Assembly: GCF_000830005.1 (NCBI RefSeq)
Contig: NZ_CP010407.1
Span: 7,266,001-7,330,000 of the forward strand
Reading direction: 5' to 3'
Length of the DNA stretch: 64,000 bases
Origin: Streptomyces vietnamensis
GTDB taxonomy: Bacteria; Actinomycetota; Actinomycetes; Streptomycetales; Streptomycetaceae
Part shown: positions 640 through 51,181 of the stretch, one piece after another
Layout of the letters: every line of letters starts with the position of its first letter
How positions within the stretch are numbered: position 1 is the stretch's first letter
Program-made: the position numbers and the translations under genes
The notes under the pieces: model-generated
What the model saw: the letters and a program-made list of their open reading frames with translations, nothing else
Told to the model about the DNA's origin: nothing
Database searches by the model: none

Positions 640-2007
640 TCAGGCCCGCTGCGCGGCGATCAGGGCGCGGTACCAGTCGAAGCTCGCCCGGGGTGTGCGG
701 CGCAGGGTGGCGAAGTCGACCTCGACCAGACCGAAACGCTGGTGGTAGCCCTCGGCCCACTCGAAGTTGTCGAGCAGCGACCAGGTGAAGTAGCCGCGCA
801 CGTCCACCCCTCGGGCCACGGCGTCCGCGACCGCGGTGATGTGCCCGTCGAGGTAGTCGATGCGCTCCCGGTCGTCCGTGCCGGCCGGCTGCGAGCAGCC
901 GCTCTCGGTGATCCACACCGGCGGAAGGGCGTCGCCGTAGCGGGCCTTGAGGCCGGTGAGCAGCTCCGTGAGCCCGTCGGGGACGACCGGCCAGTCGAAC
1001 GCGGTGCGCCGGTACGTCTCCTGAGGTTCCGTCAGGTCGAAGGGCAGGCCCGCGGCGGGATCGGCCGGGGCGGTCACCCAGGTCGGGTTGTAGTAGTTGA
1101 TCCCGAGGCCGTCCAGTGGCGCGGCGATGGTGGCGAGGTCGCCGTCGCGGACCACGCCTCCCCAGCTCGGGTCGGTCATGCCGTACGCCGAGAGGTCGGG
1201 GTGGCTCCCGAGGAGGACCGGGTCGTTGAAGAGGCGGTTGTGCAGGACGTCGTACGCCGAGGCCGCCGCCGCGTCCCCGTCCGACCGGGCGTCCGGGCGC
1301 AGCCGTACGGGCGTGCAGTTGTTGGCGATCAGGACCTGGGCGTCCGGGACGGCGGCCCGCAGCGCCGCGGTCGCCAGGCCGTGGCCGAGCAGCTGGTGGT
1401 GCGCGACCGGCAGCGCGTCCAGCATCAGGGCGCGGCCCGGGGCGTGGACGCCGAAGCCGTAGCCGAAGGACATGTGCACGAAGGGCTCGTTGAGGGTGAT
1501 CCACCGCTTGACCCGGTCGCCGAGCCGCTCGGCCGTCACCGCCGCGTACTCGGCGAACCGGTGCGCGGTGTCGCGGTTCAGCCATCCGCCCTCGTCCTCC
1601 AGGGCCTGCGGCAGGTCCCAGTGGAAGAGGGTGGGCGTGGGCTCGATCCCGGCGTCGAGCAGCGCGTCGACGAGCCGGTCGTAGAAGTCGAGGCCGCGCG
1701 GCTCGACCTTGCCCGCGCCGGTCGGCAGGACGCGCGGCCAGGACACCGAGAAGCGGTACGCGTCGAGCCCGAGCCGGCGCATCAGCGCGACGTCCTCGTC
1801 GAGGCGGTGGTAGTGGTCGCAGGCGACGTCACCGGTGTGACCGTCGCGGACGGTCCCGGGGCGCCGTACGAAGGTGTCCCAGATCGACGCGCCCTTGCCG
1901 TCCTCGTCGGCCGCGCCCTCGATCTGGTACGCGGCGGTCGAGGCGCCCCAGACGAAGCCGGCCGGGAGCCGGGGGATTCGGGTGGGATCGGTGGGGCTGG
2001 TTGTCAC
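640..2007 (-). CDS. GH1 family beta-glucosidase
   Basis: Family 1 glycoside hydrolase of about 455 residues that hydrolyses beta-glucosides with retention of configuration. The N-terminal [14 protein letters not shown] block, the acid/base motif TLNEP and the nucleophile segment WITESG are present. The usual nucleophile motif is TENG, so the N-to-S change is unusual but leaves the catalytic Glu. No signal peptide, so it is cytosolic. I chose the GTG at 2007; an in-frame ATG at 2067 would add residues encoded by the palindromic operator. It lies between a TetR gene and an MFS sugar transporter, all in one direction, which suggests a substrate-induced uptake and hydrolysis unit. Confidence 0.88.
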   Translation of the reverse strand: MTTSPTDPTRIPRLPAGFVWGASTAAYQIEGAADEDGKGASIWDTFVRRPGTVRDGHTGDVACDHYHRLDEDVALMRRLGLDAYRFSVSWPRVLPTGAGKVEPRGLDFYDRLVDALLDAGIEPTPTLFHWDLPQALEDEGGWLNRDTAHRFAEYAAVTAERLGDRVKRWITLNEPFVHMSFGYGFGVHAPGRALMLDALPVAHHQLLGHGLATAALRAAVPDAQVLIANNCTPVRLRPDARSDGDAAAASAYDVLHNRLFNDPVLLGSHPDLSAYGMTDPSWGGVVRDGDLATIAAPLDGLGINYYNPTWVTAPADPAAGLPFDLTEPQETYRRTAFDWPVVPDGLTELLTGLKARYGDALPPVWITESGCSQPAGTDDRERIDYLDGHITAVADAVARGVDVRGYFTWSLLDNFEWAEGYHQRFGLVEVDFATLRRTPRASFDWYRALIAAQRA

Positions 2008-2056
2008 GGGCACCGCCTTCACTGCTGGGCTCGCCGTCCGAGGTGGGCCGCACCGT

Positions 2057-2078
2057 AACATGAACACTTGTTCACGTT
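2057..2078. promoter_or_regulatory. Inverted-repeat operator between tetR and the beta-glucosidase gene
   Basis: The arms TGAACA and TGTTCA are separated by CT at 2061-2074, with further symmetry AAC/GTT on the flanks. The element sits directly upstream of the beta-glucosidase start and just after the tetR stop. Its size and place fit the binding site of the adjacent TetR protein. Binding itself is inference. Confidence 0.6.
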
Positions 2079-2101
2079 CTATGGGTGGGACGCGATCGGA
2101 T

Positions 2102-2755
2102 TCACCCTTGTGCGGCCGTCAGTCGGTCCCGCAGGTCCTCCCAGTAGCCGTCCAGCATCCGCTTCAGCTCGTCCACGGTCTCCAGGTCCGGTTCGCCCCC
2201 GCCCTTGAAGACCTCGTGCAGCACGGCGTTGGCGGCCCACACCACCATCCGCGTCGCCCGGCGCGCCCGCTCGCCGCCGGGCCCGCCGGTCAGGTGCTCC
2301 ACGATGCGCTGCAGCCCCTCGGCGATGAGCGCGTTGCTCGCCTCGTCGGCCCGGGCGAGCTCGGAACTGAGGTGCCGTCCGGCCCACAGCGCCATGCCGC
2401 CCGGCTGGGACCGGAACAGCTCGCTGTAGACGTCGACCATCGTGCCCACCAGGTCGGTCAGTCCACCGGCGACGGCCCGCTCGACGAGCTCGTCGATGGC
2501 GGCCTTGAAGGCCTCCAGGTACCGCCGCCCGAGCGCGTCCACCACCGCGCCCTTGTCGGGATAGAACTGGTAGATGCTGCCGACCGGGACGCCCGCGCCC
2601 TCGGCGATCCGCCGCATCGTCAGCGCCTCGTACCCCTCCTGGGAGAGGATCCGGTCGGCCGCGCCGAGGATGGCCTCGACCCGGGCCCGGCTGCGCGCCT
2701 GCTGCGGCTGCCTCCGCAGTCGCGGCCGCGAGTCCGGCTCCGTCGCTTCCGTCAT
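2102..2755 (-). CDS. TetR family transcriptional regulator
   Basis: About 217 residues. An Arg-rich N-terminus leads into a TetR helix-turn-helix at roughly residues 28-75 (LTMRRIAEGAGVPVGSIYQF is the recognition region). The remainder is a helical ligand domain. Start: ATG at 2755 with GGGAGC upstream; a GTG one codon earlier is equally possible. It lies upstream of the beta-glucosidase and MFS genes in the same direction, with a dyad operator in between, so it is the probable local repressor. It is divergent from the SufR-like regulator at 2839. Confidence 0.88.
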   Translation of the reverse strand: MTEATEPDSRPRLRRQPQQARSRARVEAILGAADRILSQEGYEALTMRRIAEGAGVPVGSIYQFYPDKGAVVDALGRRYLEAFKAAIDELVERAVAGGLTDLVGTMVDVYSELFRSQPGGMALWAGRHLSSELARADEASNALIAEGLQRIVEHLTGGPGGERARRATRMVVWAANAVLHEVFKGGGEPDLETVDELKRMLDGYWEDLRDRLTAAQG

Positions 2756-2801
2756 CACGCGCTCCCGGTCGTCCGGCGGTCCTCGTGCGGGGAAGCGTAC
2801 C

Positions 2802-2831
2802 TTCTATCGCCAATCCGCATTGTTCCTAGAA
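2802..2831. promoter_or_regulatory. Dyad operator 1 overlapping the promoter of the SufR-like regulator
   Basis: A symmetrical 30-bp element built as TTCTA, 4 nt, CAAT, 4 nt, ATTG, 4 nt, TAGAA. Its right arm overlaps a -10 hexamer TAGAAT at 2827-2832, seven bases before the GTG start at 2839, so the regulator mRNA is probably leaderless. Nearly the same dyad recurs in inverted orientation at 3471-3499. Autorepression by the gene it precedes is the simplest reading. Confidence 0.7.
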
Positions 2832-2838
2832 TGGGCTC

Positions 2839-3492
2839 GTGGAGGACATCGACGCGATCGCGGTGCTGCAGGATCCTGTACGGCGCCGCCTGTACGAGTA
2901 CGTGGTGGCACAAGGCCGCGAGGTCGGCCGCAACGAGGCCGCGGAGGCGGCCGGGGTGGCGCGCACGCTCGCCGCGCACCACCTGGACAAGCTCACCGGG
3001 GCCGGACTCCTGGAGAGCGGCAGCCGCCGTCTTTCGGGGCGCTCCGGGCCGGGGGCGGGCCGTCCCGCAAAGGTGTACACGCGGGCGCGGGGCGAGCGGT
3101 CGGTGTCGCTGCCCGCCCGCGACTACCGCACCGCCGCCGAGCTGCTCGCCGAGGCGGCCGAGGAGGCCGGCCTCGACGCCGGGCTCTGCGCGGCGGCGCG
3201 CCGCCGGGGCGAGGCGCTGCGCGGTCCGGCGGGGCCTTGCGGCGGGCTCGAAGAGGCCGTGGAGGCGCTGGCGGCCCGCGGCTACGAGCCGTACCTGGAG
3301 GACGGCGCCGTCCGGATGGGCAACTGCCCCTTCCACGCCGTCGCCGAGAGCTTTCCGCCGCTCGTCTGCGGCATGAACCTCGCCCTCCTCGAAGGGCTGC
3401 TCGGGGAGGGCGGGCCGGTCCGTGCCCGCATGGACGCCCGGCCCGGGGAGTGCTGCGTGGTGGTCGAAGCTTCTAAAAACAATGCTGATTGA
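2839..3492 (+). CDS. SufR-like (COG2345 type) HTH regulator with C-terminal cysteine motif
   Basis: 217 residues. The N-terminal winged helix (about 1-75) includes NEAAEAAGVARTLAAHHLDKL, typical of ArsR/SufR regulators. The C-terminal part carries NCPFHA, VCGMN and GECC, a Cys/His pattern like that of SufR proteins, where cysteines bind an Fe-S cluster, so metal or redox sensing is likely. GTG start at 2839 lies right after a -10-like TAGAAT, suggesting a leaderless transcript. The last codons (Ser-Lys-Asn-Asn-Ala-Asp) are written inside a second copy of its own operator-like dyad. The DUF3291 gene follows 32 bp downstream. Confidence 0.82.
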   Translation: MEDIDAIAVLQDPVRRRLYEYVVAQGREVGRNEAAEAAGVARTLAAHHLDKLTGAGLLESGSRRLSGRSGPGAGRPAKVYTRARGERSVSLPARDYRTAAELLAEAAEEAGLDAGLCAAARRRGEALRGPAGPCGGLEEAVEALAARGYEPYLEDGAVRMGNCPFHAVAESFPPLVCGMNLALLEGLLGEGGPVRARMDARPGECCVVVEASKNNAD

Positions 3493-3499
3493 CATAGAA
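3471..3499. promoter_or_regulatory. Dyad operator 2 inside the 3' end of the regulator and upstream of the DUF3291 gene
   Basis: Same architecture as the 2802-2831 dyad, in reverse: TTCTA, 4 nt, CAAT, 4 nt, ATTG, 3 nt, TAGAA. It covers the last six sense codons and the stop of the regulator gene and overlaps a -35-like TTGACA at 3489-3494 that could drive the DUF3291 gene. Two matching dyads flanking one regulator argue that the regulator binds both. Confidence 0.68.
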
Positions 3500-3524
3500 A
3501 AGCGGGTCGTGCTGGGATGAGGCC

Positions 3525-4025
3525 ATGACCGCATCCCCGCACGCCCGCCACCTCGCCCAACTCAACGTCGCCAGGCTCCGCTTCCCCATCGACGACCCGC
3601 GCGTGGCGCACTTCGTCGAGATGCTCGACCCGGTCAACGCCGCCGCCGACGACGCCCCCGGCTTCGTGTGGCGGCTCGTGGAGGACGGAGAGGCCGACGC
3701 CACCGGACTGCGCCCGCTGGGCGAGGACGTCATCGTCAACCTGTCGGTGTGGGAGACCCAGGAGGCGCTGTGGGACTTCGCGTACCGCAGCGGGCACCTG
3801 GAGGTGATGCGGCGGCGCCGTGACTGGTTCCACCGGCACGTCGAGGCGCACCTGGTGCTCTGGTGGGTCCCCGCCGGTCACGTCCCGACCGTCGGCGAGG
3901 CCCTGGAACGCCTCGCGGACCTGCGGGCGCACGGGCCGTCCCCGCGCGCGTTCACCTTCGCCTCCTCCTACACCGCCGCCGAGGCCGCCGGGCACGCGCC
4001 GGACGGGGACTCGGCGACGGTCTGA
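3525..4025 (+). CDS. DUF3291 family protein
   Basis: 166 residues starting HLAQLNVARLRFPIDDPRV, the typical opening of DUF3291 proteins, followed by LDPVNAAADDAPGFVWRL and a Trp-rich segment (SVWETQEALWDF, WWVP). The family has a dimeric alpha/beta barrel-like fold related to small monooxygenases; its reaction is not established. ATG at 3525 has GATGAGG just upstream. It is the only gene behind operator 2 and is therefore the likely second target of the SufR-like regulator. Convergent with the serine hydrolase. Confidence 0.8.
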   Translation: MTASPHARHLAQLNVARLRFPIDDPRVAHFVEMLDPVNAAADDAPGFVWRLVEDGEADATGLRPLGEDVIVNLSVWETQEALWDFAYRSGHLEVMRRRRDWFHRHVEAHLVLWWVPAGHVPTVGEALERLADLRAHGPSPRAFTFASSYTAAEAAGHAPDGDSATV

Positions 4026-8683: not shown

Positions 8684-10909
<2,226 letters not shown>

Positions 10910-11054
10910 TCATGGTCGCCTACGGCGACCCGCGCGGAGGCGATAACACGCAGGGCCCGGCCAACCGACAGAAATCATCGGAAGGAGGGACTTTCACATC
11001 AGAGGGCAGCCGGGCTTCTCTCGCTTCTCCCGTCTTCTCTCCCGTCTCCCGCCC

Positions 11055-12953
11055 CTATCGCACGATCAGCGCCCGGGCGGCCCGGACGATGTGCGTACGG
11101 GAGATGCCGCACGCGTCCAGGAGCTCCTCGGTGGTGCCGGAGCCGGGCAGCTCCGTGACGGCGAGATGGCCGAAGGAGAGGTGGGGGAAGGCGGGCCGCC
11201 CGGCGTCCGCCGCGAGGGCCGACAGGACGGCCTCGCCGAGCCCGCCCTCGGCGTGGTGGTCCTCGACGACGAGGACGGCGCCGGTCTCCAGGGCCGCGCG
11301 CCTGAGGGTGCCCACGTCGACGGGCTTGACCGAGTACAGGTCGACGACCCGGGCCCGTACGCCCTCGGCGGCCAGCTCCTCGGCGGCCGCCAGGCACTCG
11401 TGCAGGGTGACACCGGCACCGACGAGCGTGACCCGGTCGTCCGGGCTCTGCCGCAGGGTCTTCGACCCGCCGACGGGGAACGTCTCGTCACCGTCGTAGA
11501 GCACCGGATAGGCCCCGCGGGTGGCCCGCAGGTAGGAGATCCCGTCCAGATCGGCCATGGCCGCGGTCAGGGCGGCCGCTGAAGTGGCGTCGGAGGGGTA
11601 CAGCACGGTGGACCCGAGGACGGCCCGCATCATGGCGAGGTCCTCCAGACCCATCTGCGAAGGGCCGTCCGCCCCGATCTCGACCCCGCAGTGCGTCCCG
11701 CACAGGGCCATCGTGATCCGCGAGACGGCGGCCATCCGGATGAAGTCGTGCGCGCGGCTGAGGAAGGCGGCGAAGGTCGCGGCGTACGGACGGAAGCCGC
11801 GCACCGCCATGCCGACCGCGTCCGCGATCATCTGCTGCTCGGCGATGTACGTCTGGAAGTACCGCTCCGGGTGCGCCTTCCCGAAGTCCTCGGCATGGGT
11901 CGAGTTGCCGACCTCGGCGTCGAGGACGACGACCTCCGGCCGGGCACCGAGGGCGGCCAGCGCGGCACCGAAGGCCACCCGGGTGGCGACCTCGTCGCCG
12001 ACCTCGTACCGGGGCAGCTCGACGTGGCCGGCCTGCCGGGCGTGGGGGTGGGTGGCCTGCTCGTCGGGCGGACGCGGGCCGCGCACCCGCAGGTCGCGTA
12101 CGCCGCCGAGTTCGGCGACCGCGCGCTCGGCCTGGTCCTCGGACAGCGCCTTGCCGTGCCAGCCGTCCTTGTCGGCCACCTCCGCCACGCCACGGCCCTT
12201 GACGGTCCTGGCGACGACGACGGTGGGCTCCCGGCCGTCCGCGGCCGTCGTCAGGGCCAGGTCGATCGCTTCGAGGTCATGGCCGTCGACCTCGATGGCC
12301 CGGCACCCGAACGCCTCGACGCGGCGGGCGTACGCCTCGGTGTCCCACTCCAGCTCGGTGGGCCCGCTCTGGCCGAGACGGTTCACGTCGAGCAGGACGG
12401 TGAGGTTGCCGAGCCGGTGGTGTCCGGCCTTGTCGAAGGCCTCCCACACGGAGCCCTCGGCCGTCTCGCTGTCCCCGCACAGCACCCACACCCGGGAGGA
12501 CCGCCGCTCCAGGTCCCGGACCGCGAGGGCGATCCCGACGGCGTAGCCGATGCCCTGGCCGAGGGAACCGGTGGCCACGTCCACCCAGGGCAGCTCGGGC
12601 GTGGGATGGCCCTGGAGGCGGTGGCCGGAGCGGCGGTACGTCGTCATCAGCTCCTCGTCGCCGATCGCCCCGGCCGCCTTGAACATCGCGTACAGCAGGG
12701 GCGAGGCGTGCCCCTTGGAGAAGACCAGGTGGTCGCCGGCCGGGTTGTCGGGCGCCGCCCAGTCGTACCGGAGGTGGCGGGCCATCAGGACCGCCATCAG
12801 GTCGGCCGCCGACAGGCTGGAGGTGGGGTGCCCGGAGCCCGCGGCCGTACTGGCGCGCACCGAGTCCACCCGGAGCTGCTGGGCGAGCTCGAAGACCCGG
12901 GAGAGGTCGCTGTGCGGGCCGAGGGTGGTGGGGGTGAGGGGTGGAGCGGTCAT
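11055..12953 (-). CDS. tkt: Transketolase
   Basis: 632 residues, single-chain transketolase of the shorter, animal-like type. It transfers two-carbon units between sugar phosphates in the pentose phosphate pathway using thiamine diphosphate and Mg2+. The TPP motif runs from GDSETAEG to LLDVN; HPTSSLSAADL at the start, the catalytic Glu in YIAEQQM and the C-terminal transketolase domain are all present. ATG at 12953 has AAAGGAAT upstream; the longer frame starting at 13499 is only an extension through the antisense of the next gene. Short purine-rich repeats (GACGGGAGA) follow the stop. It may be an accessory copy. Confidence 0.88.
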   Translation of the reverse strand: MTAPPLTPTTLGPHSDLSRVFELAQQLRVDSVRASTAAGSGHPTSSLSAADLMAVLMARHLRYDWAAPDNPAGDHLVFSKGHASPLLYAMFKAAGAIGDEELMTTYRRSGHRLQGHPTPELPWVDVATGSLGQGIGYAVGIALAVRDLERRSSRVWVLCGDSETAEGSVWEAFDKAGHHRLGNLTVLLDVNRLGQSGPTELEWDTEAYARRVEAFGCRAIEVDGHDLEAIDLALTTAADGREPTVVVARTVKGRGVAEVADKDGWHGKALSEDQAERAVAELGGVRDLRVRGPRPPDEQATHPHARQAGHVELPRYEVGDEVATRVAFGAALAALGARPEVVVLDAEVGNSTHAEDFGKAHPERYFQTYIAEQQMIADAVGMAVRGFRPYAATFAAFLSRAHDFIRMAAVSRITMALCGTHCGVEIGADGPSQMGLEDLAMMRAVLGSTVLYPSDATSAAALTAAMADLDGISYLRATRGAYPVLYDGDETFPVGGSKTLRQSPDDRVTLVGAGVTLHECLAAAEELAAEGVRARVVDLYSVKPVDVGTLRRAALETGAVLVVEDHHAEGGLGEAVLSALAADAGRPAFPHLSFGHLAVTELPGSGTTEELLDACGISRTHIVRAARALIVR

Positions 12954-39804: not shown

Positions 39805-40176
39805 CCCCCGGTCAACACGACGCACGCGGAGGCGAACGCTTCATCCGAACGGACGAGTCGCGCGCGATCGGGCCCGCAGGCCCCCTGAGCCGGGGGCCGA
39901 ACGGGCGACCGAACGGGCGGGTCCTCCGCGCGTCGTTGGCCGACTCTCGATCGGTTGGCCGGAAACCTGCTGGTCACCGACTTAAACATTGTTTCGAGCA
40001 AGATCACCACAAGGAGGTAATGCTCTCGGACTCATCGAGCGAGGCGGGCTCGGCGGCCGTTACTGTTCCCCGAGATCTGGACGGATTCCCGGATCTTCGC
40101 CCCCCTTTATCTTCTTTCACCGGTTTTCGGCGCGCCCGTGCGCCGAGAGTCGCCCTTGCGAAGGAGAGCTCGCCCG
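39805..40176. other. Intergenic control region upstream of eshA
   Basis: No confident gene. It holds a symmetric AAACA-T-TGTTT element at 39984-39994, an AAGGAGGT at 40010-40019 directly in front of an ATG (40020) that opens a 55-codon frame ending at 40187 and overlapping eshA out of frame, and a 7-bp hairpin (TCGGCGC/GCGCCGA, 40127-40146) shortly before the eshA ribosome-binding site. The spacing from AAGGAGG to ATG is only about 2 nt, so translation of the small frame is doubtful. Confidence 0.5.
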
Positions 40177-41589
40177 ATGACCGTTGACGACCGCCCGGAC
40201 GTACAGACGGGACCGCCCCAGCAGTCCAGTCTGAGCACCGCGGCCGCCCGCAACCTCGCCACCACGACCAAGTCCGCTCCGCAGATGCAGGAGATCAGCT
40301 CCCGCTGGCTGCTGCGGATGCTCCCCTGGGTGGAGACGAAGGGCGGCGCCTACCGGGTGAACCGCCGACTGAGCTACACCGTCGGCGACGGACGCATCGA
40401 GTTCGTCCAGGACGGCTCCCGCGTCCGCGTCATCCCCCGCGAGCTCGGCGAACTCGCCCTGCTGCGCGGCTTCGAGGACGTCGACGTGCTCAACGCGCTC
40501 GCCGACCGCTGCGTCCAGCGCGACTTCAGCGCCGGTGAGGTGCTCGTCCAGCGCGGGGCGCCCGCCGACCAGATCCACCTGATCGCCCACGGCCGCGTCA
40601 GCCAGACCTCCGTCGGCAAGTACGGCGACGAGGTCGCGGTCGCCACGCTCGCCGACGGCGACCGCTTCGGCGAGAACGCCCTCCTCGACGGCGACGCCGG
40701 CTGGGACTACACCGCGACCGCCGAGACCTCCGGCACTCTGCTCTCCCTCTCCCGCGCCGACTTCGCGAACATCCTCAACTCGGCGCCGAGCCTCCAGTCC
40801 CACATCCGGGAGTTCAGCTCGCTGCCCGACCAGCGGCAGAACAAGTACGGCGAGGCCGAGATCGCGATGTCGGCCGGCCACAAGGGCGAGGCCGAGATCC
40901 CCGGCGCCTTCGTCGACTACGAGCTCAAGCCGCGCGAGTACGAACTCTCCGTCGCCCAGACCGTCCTGAAGGTCCACACCCGGGTCGCCGACCTCTACAA
41001 CGGGCCGATGAACCAGACGGAGGAGCAGCTCAGGCTCACCATCGAGGCGCTGCGCGAGCGCCAGGAGTACGAGCTGATCAACAACCCGGAGTTCGGCCTG
41101 CTCCACAACGCCGACTTCAAGCAGCGGATCCAGCCGCACTCCGGCCCACCCACCCCGGACGACCTCGACGAGCTGCTCTGCCGCCGCCGCAGCACCAAGC
41201 TCTTCCTCGCCCACCCCAAGACGATCGCGGCGATCGGGCGCGAGTGGAACCGCGCGGGGCTCTACCCGAACACCATCGAGCTCCAGGGGCACCAGGTCCC
41301 GGCCTGGCGCGGGGTCCCGATCCTGCCCTGCAACAAGATCCCCATCAGCAAGGAGAACACCAGCTCCATCCTCGCCATGCGTCTCGGCGAGGACAACCAG
41401 GGCGTCATCGGTCTGCGCCAGACCGGTCTGCCCGAGGAGTACGAGCCGGGCCTGTCCGTGCGGTTCATGGGCATCAGCGAGCAGGCGATCATGTCGTACC
41501 TCGTCACGACGTACTACTCCGCCGCCGTCCTGGTCCCGAACGCGCTCGGCGTCCTGGAGAACGTGCAGATCGCGCGCCGGCGCGACTAG
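40177..41589 (+). CDS. eshA: EshA: Family 2B encapsulin shell protein with cyclic-nucleotide-binding domain
   Basis: 470 residues. An HK97-fold encapsulin core (N-terminal [17 protein letters not shown]-terminal [39 protein letters not shown]) is interrupted at about residues 90-205 by a cNMP-binding domain ([25 protein letters not shown] to [13 protein letters not shown], quoted in part). In typical CAP-like sites FGE is followed by a phosphate-binding Arg; here the loop reads [11 protein letters not shown], so that Arg is absent. EshA is known in Streptomyces as a multimeric protein linked to differentiation, and Family 2B shells are proposed to enclose terpene cyclases. Directly upstream of 2-MIB synthase. 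AAGGAGAG upstream of the ATG. Confidence 0.9.
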
Positions 41590-41686
41590 GGCCCCTCCCC
41601 GCAGGCCACCTCCACCCGGACCATCCGGGCCGGGCCCGCGTGCCCGGAATCCGGGACGGCCCGCCCACCTCTCCAAGGAGTCACGG

Positions 41687-43081
41687 ATGCCCGATCCCGG
41701 GCTTTCCCCTCTGCAGTCCAGCCTGCCCGGCGCCGCGGCCTCGTTCACCGCCAGGGTCCTCGCCGACGCCGCGGCCCACGGCTTCGCCGTACCGCACATC
41801 GCCGCCGAAACGCAGCCCCTCCCCACGGAAGCCCCTGCCGGAGCCCCCACCGAGGCCCCTGCCGGGATCCCCACTGGGCTCCCCGCCGGGGCCCCTGCCG
41901 GGATGGCCGTCGGGGCCGCCGCGGCCCCCGTCGTCGAACCCGCCCCCGCGACCACGCGGTCCCAGCCCGATCCGGGGTGGGTCCTGCGCGGTCCCAGTGG
42001 TCTCGGTACGGCGGGGCTGTCCCTGGTCCCGCGTGCGGAACCCCCGGCGCTCCCGGCAGAACACCCGGCGCTCCCGGCGGAGCCCCTCGCGGCGCCGGCG
42101 GACGCGCTGATCATCCCGGGCCTCTACTGGCACCCGGTGCCGGAGCCCGATCCGGTGCGGATGGAGGAGGTCAGCCGCCGGATCAAGTCCTGGGCGCTCG
42201 ACGAGATCCAGCTCTACCCGGAGGACTGGGAGGGCGACTTCGACGGGTTCCGCGTCGGGCCCTACATGGTGGCCTGCCACCCGGACGCCCCGAGCATCGA
42301 GCACCTCATGGTCGCCGCCCGGCTGATGGTCGCCGAGAACGCCGTCGACGACTGCTACTGCGAGGACCTCGGCGGTTCGCCCATCGGGCTGGGCGGACGG
42401 CTCCTCCTCGCGCACACCGCCCTGGACCCGCTGCACTCGACGGCGGAGTACCAGCCGCAGTGGGCGGAATCGCTCCACGCGGACGCGCCCCGGCGCGCCT
42501 ATCGCTCCGCCATGGAGTACTTCGTCCGCCTGGCGACCCCGTCCCAGGCCGACCGGTTCCGGCACGACATGGCCCGGCTGCACATGGGCTATCTCGCCGA
42601 GGCCGCGTGGGACGAGACGAACCACGTGCCGGAGGTGTGGGAGTACCTCACGATGCGGCAGTTCAACAACTTCCGCCCCTGTCCCACCATCACCGACACC
42701 GTCGGCGGCTACGAACTCCCCACCGATCTGCACGCCCAGCCGGCGATGCAGCGGGTCCTGGCACTGGCCGGCAACGCCAGCACCATCGTCAACGACCTGT
42801 ACTCGTACACCAAGGAACTCGCCAGCCCCGGCCGGCACATGAACCTGCCCGTGGTGCTCGCCGACCGGGAGTCCCTCTCGGAGAAGGACGCGTACCTGAA
42901 GGCGGTCGAGGTCCACAACGACCTCATGCGCGACTTCGAGGCCGCGTCCGCCGAACTGGCCGCCGCCTGCCCCGTCCCGAGCGTGCTCCGCTTCCTGAAG
43001 GGAGTGGCCGTGTGGGTCGACGGCAACCACTACTGGCACCAGACCAACACCTACCGCTACAGCCTGCCCGATTTCTGGTAA
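41687..43081 (+). CDS. tpc: 2-methylisoborneol synthase
   Basis: 464 residues. Class I terpene cyclase that ionises 2-methyl-GPP to 2-methylisoborneol. The Mg-binding motifs are DDCYCED and NDLYSYTKE (NSE triad); WVDGNHYWHQTNTYRY is the C-terminal signature. The first 140 residues are low-complexity, Pro/Ala-rich and disordered, with imperfect PAG repeats (PTEAPAGAPTEAPAG region) and PALPAE repeats; such N-terminal extensions are the proposed encapsulation signal of Family 2B cargo. AAGGAG precedes the ATG; 97 bp after eshA and 15 bp before the methyltransferase, so one operon. Confidence 0.93.
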   Translation: MPDPGLSPLQSSLPGAAASFTARVLADAAAHGFAVPHIAAETQPLPTEAPAGAPTEAPAGIPTGLPAGAPAGMAVGAAAAPVVEPAPATTRSQPDPGWVLRGPSGLGTAGLSLVPRAEPPALPAEHPALPAEPLAAPADALIIPGLYWHPVPEPDPVRMEEVSRRIKSWALDEIQLYPEDWEGDFDGFRVGPYMVACHPDAPSIEHLMVAARLMVAENAVDDCYCEDLGGSPIGLGGRLLLAHTALDPLHSTAEYQPQWAESLHADAPRRAYRSAMEYFVRLATPSQADRFRHDMARLHMGYLAEAAWDETNHVPEVWEYLTMRQFNNFRPCPTITDTVGGYELPTDLHAQPAMQRVLALAGNASTIVNDLYSYTKELASPGRHMNLPVVLADRESLSEKDAYLKAVEVHNDLMRDFEAASAELAAACPVPSVLRFLKGVAVWVDGNHYWHQTNTYRYSLPDFW

Positions 43082-43096
43082 GAACGGATTTCATCT

Positions 43097-43981
43097 GTGA
43101 CCAACACCGAGCTCCCCACCGTCAACGGCACCTCCGCGTTCGTCCCCGCCCCGGCGACGCCGTACCAGGGAGACATCGCCCGTTACTGGAACGCCGAGGC
43201 CAGGCCCGTGAACCTGCGCCTGGGTGACGTGGACGGGCTGTACCACCACCACTACGGCATCGGTGCCGTGGACCACGCCGCCCTCGGGGACGTCGAGGAC
43301 AGCGAGTACGAGAAGAAGCTGATCTCCGAGCTGCACCGCCTGGAGTCGGCGCAGGCCGAGGTGCTCCTCGACCACCTCGGCCCGATCAGCCCCGAGGACA
43401 CCCTCGTCGACGCCGGCTGCGGCCGCGGCGGTTCGAGCGTCATGGCCCACCAGCGCTTCGGCTGCAAGGTCGAGGGCGTCACCCTCTCCTCCACGCAGGC
43501 CGAGTTCGGCAACAGGCGCGCGAAGGAGCTGGAGATCGACAGCCACGTCCGCGCGCAGGTCTGCAACATGCTGGACACTCCCTTCGAGAAGGGCAGCATC
43601 GCCGGCTCGTGGAACAACGAGTCGAGCATGTACGTCGACCTGGACGACCTGTTCGCCGAGCACTCCCGGTTCCTCAAGGTCGGTGGCCGCTACGTGACCA
43701 TCACCGGCTGCTGGAACCCGAAGTACGGCCAGCCCTCGAAGTGGGTCTCCCAGATCAACGCGCACTTCGAGTGCAACATCCACTCGCGCCGTGAGTACCT
43801 GAAGGCGATGGCCGACAACCGCCTCGTCCCGCAGGCCGTCATCGACCTGACGCCGGACACCCTCCCCTACTGGGAGCTGCGGGCCACGTCCTCGCTGGTC
43901 ACCGGCATCGAGGAGGCGTTCATCGAGTCGTACAAGGACGGCTCCTTCCAGTACGTCCTGATCGCGGCCGACCGCGTCTGA
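43097..43981 (+). CDS. mtf: Geranyl diphosphate 2-C-methyltransferase
   Basis: 294 residues. SAM-dependent methyltransferase: VDAGCGRGGSS is motif I, and SWNNESSMYVDL with the YHHHYGIG N-terminal segment matches GPP C2-methyltransferases, which make 2-methyl-GPP, the substrate of the upstream cyclase. GTG start; ribosome-binding site weak, consistent with coupling to the preceding gene (15 bp gap). Followed by a very strong bidirectional terminator. Completes the eshA-cyclase-methyltransferase locus known for 2-MIB odour production. Confidence 0.93.
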   Translation: MTNTELPTVNGTSAFVPAPATPYQGDIARYWNAEARPVNLRLGDVDGLYHHHYGIGAVDHAALGDVEDSEYEKKLISELHRLESAQAEVLLDHLGPISPEDTLVDAGCGRGGSSVMAHQRFGCKVEGVTLSSTQAEFGNRRAKELEIDSHVRAQVCNMLDTPFEKGSIAGSWNNESSMYVDLDDLFAEHSRFLKVGGRYVTITGCWNPKYGQPSKWVSQINAHFECNIHSRREYLKAMADNRLVPQAVIDLTPDTLPYWELRATSSLVTGIEEAFIESYKDGSFQYVLIAADRV

Positions 43982-44042: not shown

Positions 44043-45545
44043 TCATGCCGCGGCCGTCTCCTTCTCGGAGGCCTCGGCGGTCTCGGCGGCCGGTGCGCTC
44101 ACCCGCTCGGTACGGGGCGCCTGGCCGGTCCGCAGGCCGAGGCGGGCGATGACCGCGACGAGCGCGAAGGCGGCGGCGCCGATCCAGAAGGTGAGGGTGA
44201 AGCCGGACTCGGCGGGCAGGGCCGGGACGCCGGCGGGCAGGTGCTCGATCGTCTGCGAGGCCAGGATCGTGGTGACCACGGCGCTGCCGACCGCGCTGCC
44301 GGTGGAGCGGGAGATCGAGTTGATGCCGTTGGCGATGCCGCTCTGGTGGTGCGGGACGCTCGCCATGATGACGGCGGGCATGGCCGCGTACCCGAAGCTG
44401 ACGGCCGCGCCGACGATCACGCCGGCGCCGATCACCGACGCGGTGTGGCCGTGGTCGAGGGCGAGCCAGCCGAAGCCCACGGCGCCGAACGCGGCGGCCA
44501 GGGTCAGCGCGGTGCGCGGGCCGCGGTGGCGGACCAGGCGGCCGCCGATCGGCGAGGCGAGCAGGGAGACGATCGCGCCGGGCAGCAGGAACTCCACGGA
44601 GGCGCGGAGGATGGAGGCGCCGAAGCCGTAGCCGGTGAGGGCCTCGGGCATCTGGACGAGGTACGAGACGCCCAGGAAGTTCGCGAACATGCCGAAGCCG
44701 ACGAGGATGCCGGCCAGGTTGGCCATGAGCACCGGCCGGTGCACGAACATCCGCATGTCGACGAGGGGCTCGCGGACCTTGAGCTCGGTGAAGACCCAGA
44801 CGACGGTCATGACGGCCGCGGCCGCGAAGCTGCCCAGGGTGCGGCCGGAGGTCCAGCCCCATTCGTGGCCCTGCGAGATCGGCAGCAGGAGGAGCAGCAG
44901 GGTGGCGCCGAGGGTGAGCGCGCCGAGGAAGTCGGTGCGGCCGCCGGTCTTGTGGCGGGTCGCGGGGACCAGGAACACGACGGCGAGGAGGGCGATCGCG
45001 GCGAAGCCGGTGGCCATCCAGAAGGCGCTGCGGTAGTCGGCGTCGGAGCCGGAGGTGAGCAGGCCGGTGGCGACGAGCGCGAGACCGCTGCCGAAGGCGA
45101 GGGTGCCGCTGACCAGGGACATCGCGCCGGGCAGCTTCTGCGGGCGGACCTCCTCGCGCAGCACGGACAGGGCGAGCGGGAAGATCGCGGTGGCGGCGCC
45201 CTGGAGGACGCGGCCGAGGATCAGCAGGGGGAGCGAGGTCGCCAGGGCGGCGACGACGGAGCCGGCGACCATGACGCCGAGGACGGCGACCAGGGTGGGC
45301 TTCTTGCCGTGCTGGTCGCCGAAGCGGCCGAGCAGCGGGGTGAAGACGGCGGCGGAGAGCAGGGTGGCGGTGGTGACCCAGCTGACGTTGGCGGCCGAGG
45401 TGCCCAGGTCGGCGCGGATGAGGCCGAGGATCGGGACCGGCAGGGTCTGCATCATCGACACGACCATGGCGGCGAGGCTCAGCGCGAAGACGACGAGCGT
45501 CTCGCGCCGGGGATCGGCGGCGGGCGGGGTGGTCTCGTGACTCAT
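44043..45545 (-). CDS. DHA2-type MFS drug exporter
   Basis: 500 residues with about 14 hydrophobic segments. GRFGDQHGKKPTLV is the loop 2-3 signature and the size and VSMMQTLPVPIL start match EmrB/QacA-type exporters that pump out toxic compounds with protons. GAAGGTCC upstream of the ATG. Divergent from marR, with four shared dyad sites; the exporter is the likely MarR target. Confidence 0.88.
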   Translation of the reverse strand: MSHETTPPAADPRRETLVVFALSLAAMVVSMMQTLPVPILGLIRADLGTSAANVSWVTTATLLSAAVFTPLLGRFGDQHGKKPTLVAVLGVMVAGSVVAALATSLPLLILGRVLQGAATAIFPLALSVLREEVRPQKLPGAMSLVSGTLAFGSGLALVATGLLTSGSDADYRSAFWMATGFAAIALLAVVFLVPATRHKTGGRTDFLGALTLGATLLLLLLPISQGHEWGWTSGRTLGSFAAAAVMTVVWVFTELKVREPLVDMRMFVHRPVLMANLAGILVGFGMFANFLGVSYLVQMPEALTGYGFGASILRASVEFLLPGAIVSLLASPIGGRLVRHRGPRTALTLAAAFGAVGFGWLALDHGHTASVIGAGVIVGAAVSFGYAAMPAVIMASVPHHQSGIANGINSISRSTGSAVGSAVVTTILASQTIEHLPAGVPALPAESGFTLTFWIGAAAFALVAVIARLGLRTGQAPRTERVSAPAAETAEASEKETAAA

Positions 45546-45700: not shown

Positions 45701-46141
45701 ATGAGCGCGACGACCCCCGAGACGCCCACCAAGCTCCAGCTGCTCGAGCTCCTCGCCGCCATCGGCACGGCGCAGTGGCGCGACTTCGCCGCCGCTGCCG
45801 CCCACCACGGGCTGACGTCCACGCAGGCCAAGGTCCTCGCCCAGCTGAACGGTCCGCTGCCGATGCGCGCCCTCGCGACCCTGCTCGTCTGCGACGCGTC
45901 GAACGTCACCGGGATCATCGACCGCCTGGAGGGGCGCGGCCTGGTGCGCCGCGAGCCCGACGCCTCCGACCGGCGCGTGAAGAACGTCGTGGCGACCGAC
46001 GAGGGCCGGGAGGTCATCCGGCGGGTCCGCGAGGAGATGCAGGCGACCCACGGCGCCCTCGACACCCTCGGCGCGGAGGACAGCGCCACCCTGTACGGCC
46101 TGCTCGCGCGGCTGCGACCGGGCATGGAGAACAACGCCTGA
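45701..46141 (+). CDS. MarR family transcriptional regulator
   Basis: 146 residues. Winged helix with PMRALATLLVCDASNVTGIIDRL (recognition region), the wing DASDRRVKNVVATDEG and flanking dimerisation helices. Divergent from the DHA2 exporter and sharing phased operators with it, so it probably represses both until a ligand, perhaps an exported compound, binds. The last coding bases are duplicated directly and in inverted form downstream. Confidence 0.9.
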   Translation: MSATTPETPTKLQLLELLAAIGTAQWRDFAAAAAHHGLTSTQAKVLAQLNGPLPMRALATLLVCDASNVTGIIDRLEGRGLVRREPDASDRRVKNVVATDEGREVIRRVREEMQATHGALDTLGAEDSATLYGLLARLRPGMENNA

Positions 46142-47199: not shown

Positions 47200-49370
47200 A
47201 GGTCGTGCCCGAGGTCGGCCGCCAGCCGCGTCACCAGGTCGTGGGCCGCGTCGGGGATCACCGTCCCCGGCGGGAACACGGCCGCCGCGCCCATCTCCAG
47301 GAGCGTCGGCACGTCCTGCGGGGGGATGACGCCGCCGACCACGATCATGATGTCCTCGCGGCCCTCCGCCGCGAGCTCCTCCCGCAGCGCCGGCACGAGG
47401 GTGAGGTGCCCCGCGGCCAGCGACGAGACCCCGACGATGTGCACGTCCGCCTCGACGGCCTGACGCGCCACCTCGGCCGGGGTCTGGAACAGCGGGCCGA
47501 CGTCCACGTCGAAGCCCAGGTCGGCGAAGGCGGTGGCGATCACCTTCTGGCCCCGGTCGTGGCCGTCCTGGCCCATCTTGGCGACCAGGATGCGCGGCCG
47601 GCGCCCCTCGGCCTCGCCGAAGGCGTCGACCAGGGTCCGGGTGCGCTCCACGGAGGGGGACTCGCCTGTCTCGGTGCGGTACACACCGGAGATCGTACGG
47701 ATCTGCGCCGCGTGACGGCCGTACACCTTCTCCAGGGCCTCCGAGATCTCGCCGACGGTGGCCTTCGCGCGGGCCGCGCGCACGGCGAGCTCCAGGAGGT
47801 TGCCGTCGCCGCCCGCGGCGCGGGTGAGCGCGTCGAGCGCGTCCCGGCAGGCGGTCTCGTCGCGCTCCTCGCGCAGCCGCCGCAGCTTCTCGATCTGCTG
47901 GGCGCGGACGGAGGAGTTGTCGACCTTGAGGACCTCGATCTGCTCGTCGGACGCCACCCGGTACTTGTTGACGCCGATCACCGGCTGCCGTCCGGAGTCG
48001 ATGCGGGCCTGGGTGCGGGCCGCGGCCTCCTCCACGCGCAGCTTGGGGATGCCCGCGTCGATGGCCTTGGCCATGCCGCCGGCCTGCTCGACCTCCTGGA
48101 TGTGCTTCCACGCGCGGCGGGCCAGGTCGTAGGTGAGCTTCTCGACGTACGCGCTGCCGCCCCAGGGGTCGATCGTCCGGCAGGTGCCGGACTCCTGCTG
48201 GAGGAGCAGCTGCGTGTTGCGGGCGATGCGCGCCGAGAAGTCGGTGGGCAGCGCGAGGGCCTCGTCGAGGGCGTTGGTGTGCAGCGACTGGGTGTGGCCC
48301 TGGGTCGCGGCCATCGCCTCCACGCAGGTCCGCGTGACGTTGTTGAACACGTCCTGCGCGGTCAGCGACCAGCCGGAGGTCTGCGAATGGGTCCGCAGGG
48401 AAAGCGACTTGGCGTTCTGCGGGTCGAACTGCTTGACCAGCTTCGCCCAGAGCAGCCGGGCCGCGCGCAGCTTCGCGATCTCCATGAAGAAGTTCATGCC
48501 GATCGCCCAGAAGAACGACAGGCGCGGCGCGAACGCGTCCACGTCCAGGCCCGCTTCACGCCCGGCCCGGATGTACTCCACACCGTCCGCGAGCGTGTAC
48601 GCCAGCTCCAGGTCGGCCGTCGCACCCGCCTCCTGGATGTGGTACCCGGAGATGGAGATGGAGTTGTAGCGCGGCATCCGCTGCGAGGTGTACGCGAAGA
48701 TGTCGGAGATGATCCGCATCGACGGCCCGGGCGGATAGATGTACGTGTTGCGGACCATGAACTCCTTGAGGATGTCGTTCTGGATGGTCCCGGCCAGCTT
48801 CTCGGGCGGTACGCCCTGCTCCTCGGCGGCCACGATGTACAGCGCGAGCACGGGCAGCACCGCGCCGTTCATCGTCATCGACACGGACATCTTGTCCAGC
48901 GGGATGCCGTCGAACAGCTGCCGCATGTCGTAGATGGAGTCGATGGCCACGCCGGCCATGCCGACGTCACCGGTGACGCGCGGGTGGTCGCTGTCGTAGC
49001 CGCGGTGGGTCGGCAGGTCGAAGGCGACCGACAGGCCCTTCTGGCCGGCGGCGAGGTTGCGCCGGTAGAAGGCGTTCGACTCCTCGGCCGTGGAGAAGCC
49101 CGCGTACTGACGGATCGTCCAGGGCTGGTTGACGTACATGGTCGGGTACGGGCCGCGCAGGTACGGGGTCATGCCCGGACGGGTGTCCAGGAAGTCCAGG
49201 CCCTCCAGGTCCTGCCCGGTGTACAGCGGCTTGACGGCGATGCCCTCCGGGGTCTCCCACAGCAGGTCGTCACCGCCCGCCGCCTTCTCGACGGCCGTGC
49301 GCCACTCGTCGGACCCGCCCCCGGCGGCCTGTGCCCCGAGCTCGATCCCGGAGAAATCGGGGATGGACAT
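47196..49370 (-). CDS. mutB: Methylmalonyl-CoA mutase large (catalytic) subunit
   Basis: 724 residues. The N-terminal TIM barrel ([24 protein letters not shown], partly quoted; [11 protein letters not shown]) and the C-terminal B12 domain with DGHDRG (the DxHxxG ligand His) are complete. Interconverts succinyl-CoA and methylmalonyl-CoA with adenosylcobalamin, supplying extender units for polyketides and propionate metabolism. ATG at 49370 shares one base with the mutA stop (TGATG). No cobalamin riboswitch seen upstream. Confidence 0.95.
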
Positions 49371-51181
49371 CAGGACACTCCCATGCGGTCGAGGGCGGTG
49401 GAGAGCAGGGCGACGGCGTCGCAGCCGGCGAAGACGTACGAGTCGACACCGGCGTACGACGCGGGGCGCCCGGCCAGGAGGACGTGCTCGGCCCCGGCCG
49501 CGCGCAGCTCCCCGGCGGTGGCCTCGGCCTGCTCCTCGTACAGCGCGTCGTTGGAGCAGAGGCAGGCCTCGCGGGCGCCGCTCTCCTCGAACGTGCCCTC
49601 GGTGACGGCCTCGATGCCGCCCGCCTGGAAGAGGTTGGCGGCGAAGGTGAGCCGGGCCGAGTGCGCGGCCGCCGGGCCGAGCGCGGCCAGGTAGACGCGG
49701 GGCCGGGCACCGGTCGCCGCGAGGTGGGCGTCGGAGCGGGCGCGCAGCTCCTCGTACGCCTCGTCGCGCCGGACGCGGGGGAGGCCACCGGAGAGCGGCT
49801 GGGGCGCGGGCGCGCGGTCGACGGGCTTCTCCGCGAGGTGCGGGAACTCGCTGACGCCGGTGATGGGTTCGCGGCGGGTGGCGAGCTTCCTGCTGCGCGC
49901 GGCCCAGGTCTCGGCGAGCCGCTCGCCGATCAGGCCGGAGCGCAGCGCGGCCTCCTGGCCGCCCGCCCGCTCGATCGTCCGGAAGAACTCCCAGGCGGCG
50001 TGCGCGAGTTCGTCGGTGAGCTTCTCCACGTACCAGGAGCCGCCCGCCGGGTCGATGACCCGGGACAGGTGGGACTCCTCGATGAGGACGGTGGAGGTGT
50101 TGCGGGCGATCCGGCGGGCGAACGCGTCCGGCAGGCCGAGCGCGTCGTCGAAGGGCAGCACGGTGACGCTGTCGGCGCCGCCCACACCGGCCGCGAGGGT
50201 CGCGATGGTGGTGCGCAGCATGTTCACCCAGGGGTCGCGGCGCGTCATCATCACCGGCGAGGTCACCGCGTGCTGGCGCTGCGCGCCCGCCTCCGGGGCG
50301 CCGCAGGCCTCGGCGACACGGGCCCACAGGCGGCGCGCGGCGCGCAGCTTGGCGATCGTCAGGAACTGGTCGGCGGTGGCGGCGTAACGGAACTCCAGCT
50401 GCCCGCAGGCCTCGGTGACGCTCAGTCCGGCCTCGGTCAGGCCCCGCAGGTAGGCGACACCGGTCGCGAGGGAGCAGCCGAGCTCCTGCGCGGCCGAGCC
50501 GCCGGCCTCGTGGTACGGCAGGGCGTCCACGGTGAGGGCCCGAAGGCCCGGGTACGTGTCGGCGCAGCGGCGTGCGAGGCCGGCGACGGACGCCAGGTCG
50601 TAGGCCGCGCGGCCGGTGCGGGCCTCGTGGCCCAGCGGGTCGGCGCCCAGGCTGCCGCGGGCCGCCTCCGGGGCGACGCCCCGCTCCTCGTACAGCCGCA
50701 GCAGCCGCTCGGCGGCCGCCTCCGTCTCGTCGCCCGCGTCGAGGACGACGGGCGCGAGGTCGAGGTAGACGCCGTCGAGGACGCCGTCGAGCGAGGACAC
50801 CGGGATGCCCGTGCCGCCGACGCCGAGCCACAGGGAGGTGACGCCGTTCTCCAGGTCGGCGAGGACGGCCTCGTTGTCGGCCGTCAGGTGCCGCTGGCGC
50901 ACGTCCCAGCCGCCGACGGTGTTGCCCTCGGCCCGCCCGCCGCGCACGAAGGGCGCGAAGCCGGGGAGGCCGGGGTCGGGCGCGGTGTCGCGCGCGGTGT
51001 ACAGGGGGCGGGTGCCGAGGCCGTCCTCAAGGAGGGTGGACAGGGCGTCCTCGGCGGCGGCGCCGGAGACCTCCTTGCCCGACTTGCGCAGGACACCCGC
51101 CACGAGGTGTTGCCACTGATCGTGTGGCGCGTCTGGGAATTCGGACGCCAGGGAGAGCCCGTCGTCAGGCAGGACCGTCAT
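49370..51181 (-). CDS. mutA: Methylmalonyl-CoA mutase small subunit
   Basis: 603 residues, homologous to the large subunit but lacking the DxHxxG B12-binding His (the corresponding region reads [10 protein letters not shown]), as expected for the non-catalytic partner of the heterodimer. No ribosome-binding site is evident, and TAGCAT at 51194-51189 sits seven bases before the ATG, so the transcript is probably leaderless. First gene of mutA-mutB-meaB. Confidence 0.92.

Follow-up and report, generated by a model that had tools for sequence, protein, structure and literature searches.

Organisation of the locus

The window, i.e. the whole stretch of 64,000 nucleotides from Streptomyces vietnamensis that was analysed, contains three genes on the + strand (outer coordinates 40177-43981), with open frames of 470, 464 and 294 codons:

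40177..41589, + strand: eshA, family 2B encapsulin shell protein, 470 aa (NF041163; 9bhu)
41687..43081, + strand: 2-methylisoborneol synthase, 464 aa, putative cargo (NF041167; 3v1v)
43097..43981, + strand: geranyl diphosphate 2-C-methyltransferase, 294 aa (NF041943; 4f84)

In the list of frames eshA begins at an upstream GTG (40138), but the sequence GAAGGAG (40160-40166) stands before the ATG at 40177. All three products exceed the curated NCBIfam cut-off, which is 400 for each of the models: EshA scores 768.9 bits against NF041163 (family 2B shell), the cyclase 484.7 bits against NF041167 (family 2 cargo terpene cyclase) and the methyltransferase 481.1 bits against NF041943, an equivalog model of the geranyl diphosphate 2-C-methyltransferase (GPPMT). 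The nearest solved relatives of the two enzymes are 3v1v, a 2-methylisoborneol (2-MIB) synthase (634.2 bits), and 4f84, a GPP methyltransferase (580 bits). The three-gene trio of the initial annotation is exact to the base, and the roles of shell, cargo and methyltransferase that it assigned are backed by the family models, the solved relatives and the conserved gene order (see below).

The scan for promoters returned no site, and that for terminators one site, on the - strand within eshA, against 1.3 expected. PADLOC, applied to seven proteins of the window, gave a single match, to a desaturase-type oxidoreductase model. Directly downstream of the operon an MFS-type transporter gene (44043-45545, - strand) diverges from a MarR-type regulator gene (45701-46141, + strand). 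A methylmalonyl-CoA mutase family protein is encoded further on (49370-51181, - strand; PF01642, 426.4 bits).

The shell protein and the cyclase

The following features were delimited within eshA:

40222..40275, + strand: shell N-terminal arm, residues 16-33, conserved among family 2B shells and still discernible in 2A chains
40519..40779, + strand: cNMP-binding-fold domain, residues 115-201, with Trp176 in place of the phosphate-binding arginine (PF00027)
40828..41577, + strand: SrpI-like HK97-type capsid domain, residues 218-467 (PF19307, 462.7 bits)

The closest solved relative of EshA is the chain 9bhu (823.9 bits), with which residues 1-467 align gap-free. From its sequence EshA possesses an HK97-type, SrpI-like capsid domain (PF19307, NF041163), and the Pfam matches place the cNMP-fold domain between the N-arm region and the capsid domain, as defines family 2B. 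The HK97-like shell core with an inserted cyclic-nucleotide-binding fold, as initially described, is thus present. A relative 96% identical to EshA is already annotated as a “family 2B encapsulin nanocompartment shell protein”. By analogy with 9BHU, EshA subunits would form icosahedral particles.

The reverse strand of eshA (40222-40718, - strand) matches the Rfam family RF02735, Sernc350, with 131.8 bits for a gathering threshold of 50. Sernc350 is an antisense RNA family of Saccharopolyspora; the match may point to transcription antisense to shell genes, or simply reflect conserved coding sequence. The genome from which the window is taken carries two more family 2B shell genes (L039, ~9865-12641, and L040, 16445-17962). 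Behind one of them comes a polyprenyl synthetase gene (PF00348) with an uncertain true start; close to the other is an alcohol dehydrogenase gene, with a geosmin-synthase-like gene ~14.6 kb away.

For the cyclase the features are:

41687..42109, + strand: low-complexity N-terminal domain, residues 1-141, putative cargo-loading domain (from composition and by analogy with excerpts of PMC8346489)
41714..41743, + strand: QSSLPGAAAS, peptide resembling the shell N-arm, residues 10-19 (profile score 11.3)
41990..42010, + strand: GPSGLGT motif, residues 102-108, a variant of the published GPTGLGT
42347..42367, + strand: metal-binding motif DDCYCED, residues 221-227
42791..42817, + strand: NSE-type metal-binding motif NDLYSYTKE, residues 369-377

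The ~140 residues that precede the core are rich in Pro, Ala and Gly; their disorder, proposed from the start, is judged from this composition. Conserved cyclase homology begins at about residue 142, near which most of the other alignment rows had been cut. Both DDCYCED and NDLYSYTKE, the metal-binding motifs of class I terpene cyclases, are intact in the core recognised by NF041167. The GPSGLGT sequence lies within the N-terminal domain, and excerpts of PMC8346489 describe, for such loci, the GPTGLGT motif and the terpene cyclase as a putative cargo.

The locus is an ordinary, well-annotated member of an already described kind. It differs from the S. griseus family 2B encapsulin (9BHU) by sequence divergence only; the cNMP-fold insertion is common to both and no difference of kind was seen. 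It resembles the family 2B operons with 2-MIBS-like cyclases in its three gene types, its N-terminal domain and its GPTGLGT-type motif (PMC8346489, excerpts). It has a single shell gene, in contrast to the 21% of family 2B systems with two shells (PMC12407261, excerpts). The family 2A SrpI encapsulin has a related capsid domain and N-arm, and its cargo is loaded through a disordered N-terminal domain (PMC8049743, excerpts), but it lacks the inserted cNMP-fold domain and its cargo is a cysteine desulfurase.

Gene order across Streptomyces

We searched the genus with the GPPMT profile, whose cut-off was exceeded in 81 of 150 genomes, at 92 places (91 fetched regions and the window). The methyltransferase is found at all 92, the cyclase at 90, the shell at 78 and all three at 76; in 74 of the 92 loci the order is shell-cyclase-methyltransferase on one strand. 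Among the 76 full trios two depart from this order: L081, whose cyclase is encoded on the opposite strand, and L122, whose partial shell shares its frame with the cyclase. A contig edge cuts 4 of the 14 shell-less places (L093, L111, L125 and L159).

Starting from the cyclase, 67 of 80 named loci have both shell and methyltransferase, 66 of them in the same order; these are the best 80 of 540, a set biased toward close relatives and overlapping with the GPPMT-found set. The remaining 13 show no shell in the fetched flank, L217 among them being cut by the contig end. Judging by these 13 loci, a linked shell does not seem to be required for making 2-MIB. Family 2B shells by themselves are nearly universal in the genus (over cut-off in 289 of 295 genomes). 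Excerpts of PMC8346489 report 904 family 2B operons with terpene cyclases, many of which encode C-methyltransferases, usually beside 2-MIBS-like cyclases.

In L122 (~1867-3930, on a 7.6 kb contig) shell residues 1-315 and the cyclase share one open frame; L227 is identical in length and match position. In L122 the two genes may be naturally fused, the shell may have decayed, or the contig may be misassembled.

Twenty-four loci (L124, L129, L131-L151 and L162) form a group apart, with cyclases 51-55% identical to that of the window, with a short N-terminus and an LPGPPNLAR-like sequence. Their metal motif reads DSCYCEE (14), DNCYCEE (4), DTCYCEE (2) or DDCYCEE (1), and was not found in 3; a shell 51-58% identical to that of the window is present in 23 of the 24. 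The product of this group may differ from 2-methylisoborneol.

Probable encapsulation of the cyclase

We hold with high confidence that the locus is a 2-methylisoborneol operon of the family 2B encapsulin type, with a single shell that takes up the cyclase. In the established enzymology of the families, 2-methylgeranyl diphosphate is made first and 2-methylisoborneol next. By close homology, the methyltransferase of the window would transfer the methyl group of S-adenosylmethionine onto C2 of geranyl diphosphate, and the cyclase would convert the resulting 2-methylgeranyl diphosphate to 2-methylisoborneol. EshA subunits would form the icosahedral shell, loaded with the cyclase via its low-complexity N-terminal domain. 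A preprint on the S. griseus shell is said to have found the 2-MIB synthase inside. With the S. griseus system, the gene order, the long low-complexity N-terminus and the published proposal, the cyclase is very probably packed in the shell in S. vietnamensis as well. Terpene cyclases count among the studied encapsulin cargo (PMC12407261, excerpts).

A real shell with a cyclase working outside it, the gene order reflecting co-inheritance only, appears improbable to us. The existence of shell-less 2-MIB loci agrees with such an arrangement, as do the group B cyclases, which are devoid of a GPTGLGT-type motif and yet have a shell in 23 of 24 such loci. Against it stand the long low-complexity N-terminus and conserved peptides of this group of cyclases, and the presence of GPxGxGT in 81 of 83 shell-linked cyclases.

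The inserted cNMP-fold domain

The initial annotation had suggested possible gating by a nucleotide ligand. The inserted domain does match PF00027 (64.3 bits), but opening of the shell by cAMP or cGMP is very unlikely. In the alignment to cGMP-dependent kinase, Trp176 occupies the column of the phosphate-binding arginine of the binding motif, and EshA lacks the residue expected of Crp-type cAMP binding. Over 140 aligned rows (139 shell segments, that of the window included, and the window protein as reference) this column contains W in 131, H in 6, A, Y and a gap in 1 each, and Arg in none. The column of the motif glutamate (residue 166) contains E in 89 rows, D in 31, G in 14 and other residues in 6. 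According to excerpts of PMC12407261, cyclic nucleotides are not bound by the cNMP domain of family 2B shells, and a different ligand has been suggested. Cyclic-nucleotide gating is thus not supported: the inserted domain is probably not a cyclic-nucleotide gate and may bind some other ligand.

The older view of EshA as a regulator, which finds an echo in the PDB relatives 9bix and 9bje, named Crp/Fnr family transcriptional regulators, is very unlikely for a free protein that is not a shell: the Pfam matches of EshA comprise the complete capsid domain but none for DNA binding, and 9BHU is described as an encapsulin.

Resemblance between the shell arm and cyclase peptides

The shell N-arm reads QSSL[GS]TAAAR, or nearly so, in most of the shells listed, and is recognisable in family 2A. 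Its likeness to peptides of terpene cyclases was noticed first and tested afterwards. We ran a 10-column arm profile (residues 16-25) against all distinct open frames in the regions fetched. These give 5466 segments, of which 139 were set aside as shells; terpene synthases make up 3.5% of the segments. In the non-shell frames 28 of the top 30 hits are terpene synthases, all with sites outside the catalytic core, and one of the two others is a shell fragment missed by the filter. When non-core terpene sites are counted for each of 91 shell windows, the arm gives 28 and the next ones 13, 10 and 8; the window with 8 overlaps the arm.

The top-30 terpene count regardless of site was discarded as insufficient: two other shell windows reach 24 and 21, almost wholly with single catalytic-core sites (all 24 in the first window; 20 in the second, with 1 site outside the core).

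Two kinds of peptide stand out. PTGLGTSAAR, present mainly in geosmin synthase tails and also at the N-termini of some more distant cyclases, has an arm score of 17.3, reached by none of 5139 background segments. QSSLPxAAA[RH] is found at the N-terminus of many 2-MIB synthases, and its commonest form scores 16.2, reached by 1 of the 5139. Cyclases of two deep relatives in the phylum (L343 and L344) carry PVGLGTGAAR and PVGLGTAASR, which are weak, their scores being reached by 54 and 129 of the 5139. The window's own copies are weak too and at best suggestive: the score of QSSLPGAAAS (11.3) is reached by 35 of the 5139 background segments, and that of PSGLGTAGLS (2.3) by 2912.

In the reverse test, a profile of geosmin synthase tails scores highest at the N-arm in 66 of 68 shells, a result that 3 of 1000 column permutations equal. 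Over nine variants of the profile (three motif sets by three spans) the arm is best in 42 to 66 of the 68 shells, while 0 to 10 of 200 column permutations, run on every fourth shell, did as well. The 68 shells are related, so that their agreement is close to one event. Within one operon, arm and cyclase also vary together: with an arm starting QSSL, QTSL or QSTL, 56 of 73 paired cyclases have a QSSLP-like peptide, against 0 of 10 with any other arm. This pairing may be a single historical change, since 6 of the 10 other arms are QQSL and maybe belong to one clade.

Several results do not go in the same direction. The QSSLP-like peptide occurs in 56 of 83 shell-linked and 6 of 13 shell-less loci, which is no clear difference (p = 0.21); one of the 13 (L112) has a shell by another listing, and 11 of 107 cyclases were left out of these counts for a short flank or N-terminus. 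All 13 loci counted as shell-less nevertheless retain GPxGxGT. This motif is absent from 18 of the 18 listed group B cyclases, whose best arm-like scores are at most 5.0, and the arms of the adjoining shells are conserved. Within the window's genome, LGT[AS]AAR (first residue also F) occurs at 4 places and the reversed pattern at 3; in frame, the four are a geosmin-synthase-like tail, a shell arm, a protein that by eye resembles gyrase, and a protein without a name, the last two indicating that chance matches occur. GPxGLGT occurs there at 8 places, as does its reversed pattern; two terpene-cyclase places are in coding frame, and most of the others appear to be non-coding from their third-position G+C (L174 was not read).

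For geosmin synthases a loose motif is found in 50 of 58 segments, whereas only 5 of 59 loci have a shell within the stretch fetched. This pattern fits loading in trans, but also a function unrelated to shells. Shell linkage was rejected as an explanation of the motif: a shell accompanies 2 of 24 geosmin synthases with a C-terminal motif and 3 of 35 without (Fisher p = 1.0), and 3 of 23 with a linker motif and 2 of 36 without (p = 0.37). For this comparison the motifs were assigned by an automatic and rough call, in which 4 of 59 proteins (L317, L332, L333 and L335) were read from the wrong point.

A luminal docking site for such peptides is putative, because the N-terminus reaches the shell exterior in the structure of family 2A (PMC8346489, excerpts), and the arm is resolved only in some contacts of one of two shell proteins (PMC12407261, excerpts). 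The excerpts of PMC8346489, PMC8049743 and PMC12407261 do not mention a likeness between arm and cargo peptides, and the string GPTGLGT appeared, in the literature searched, in PMC8346489 only; we claim no priority.

Significance

2-Methylisoborneol has a musty smell, spoils water and marks soil, and the locus is one more example of the compartments already described for such an odour terpene. Its one lead worth pursuing is the set of arm-like cargo peptides. Geosmin synthases are rarely encoded beside a shell gene and mostly have an arm-like peptide in the tail or linker. We tentatively propose, as a possibility with the odds against it, that cargo peptides imitate the shell arm QSSL[GS]TAAAR and compete for, or share, the groove of the neighbouring subunit, geosmin synthases being an unrecognised cargo loaded in trans by the shells present in almost all Streptomyces. 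Should the peptide truly signal loading, a sequence rule would follow for the choice of cargo by family 2B shells, and enzymes packed without a neighbouring shell gene could be predicted.
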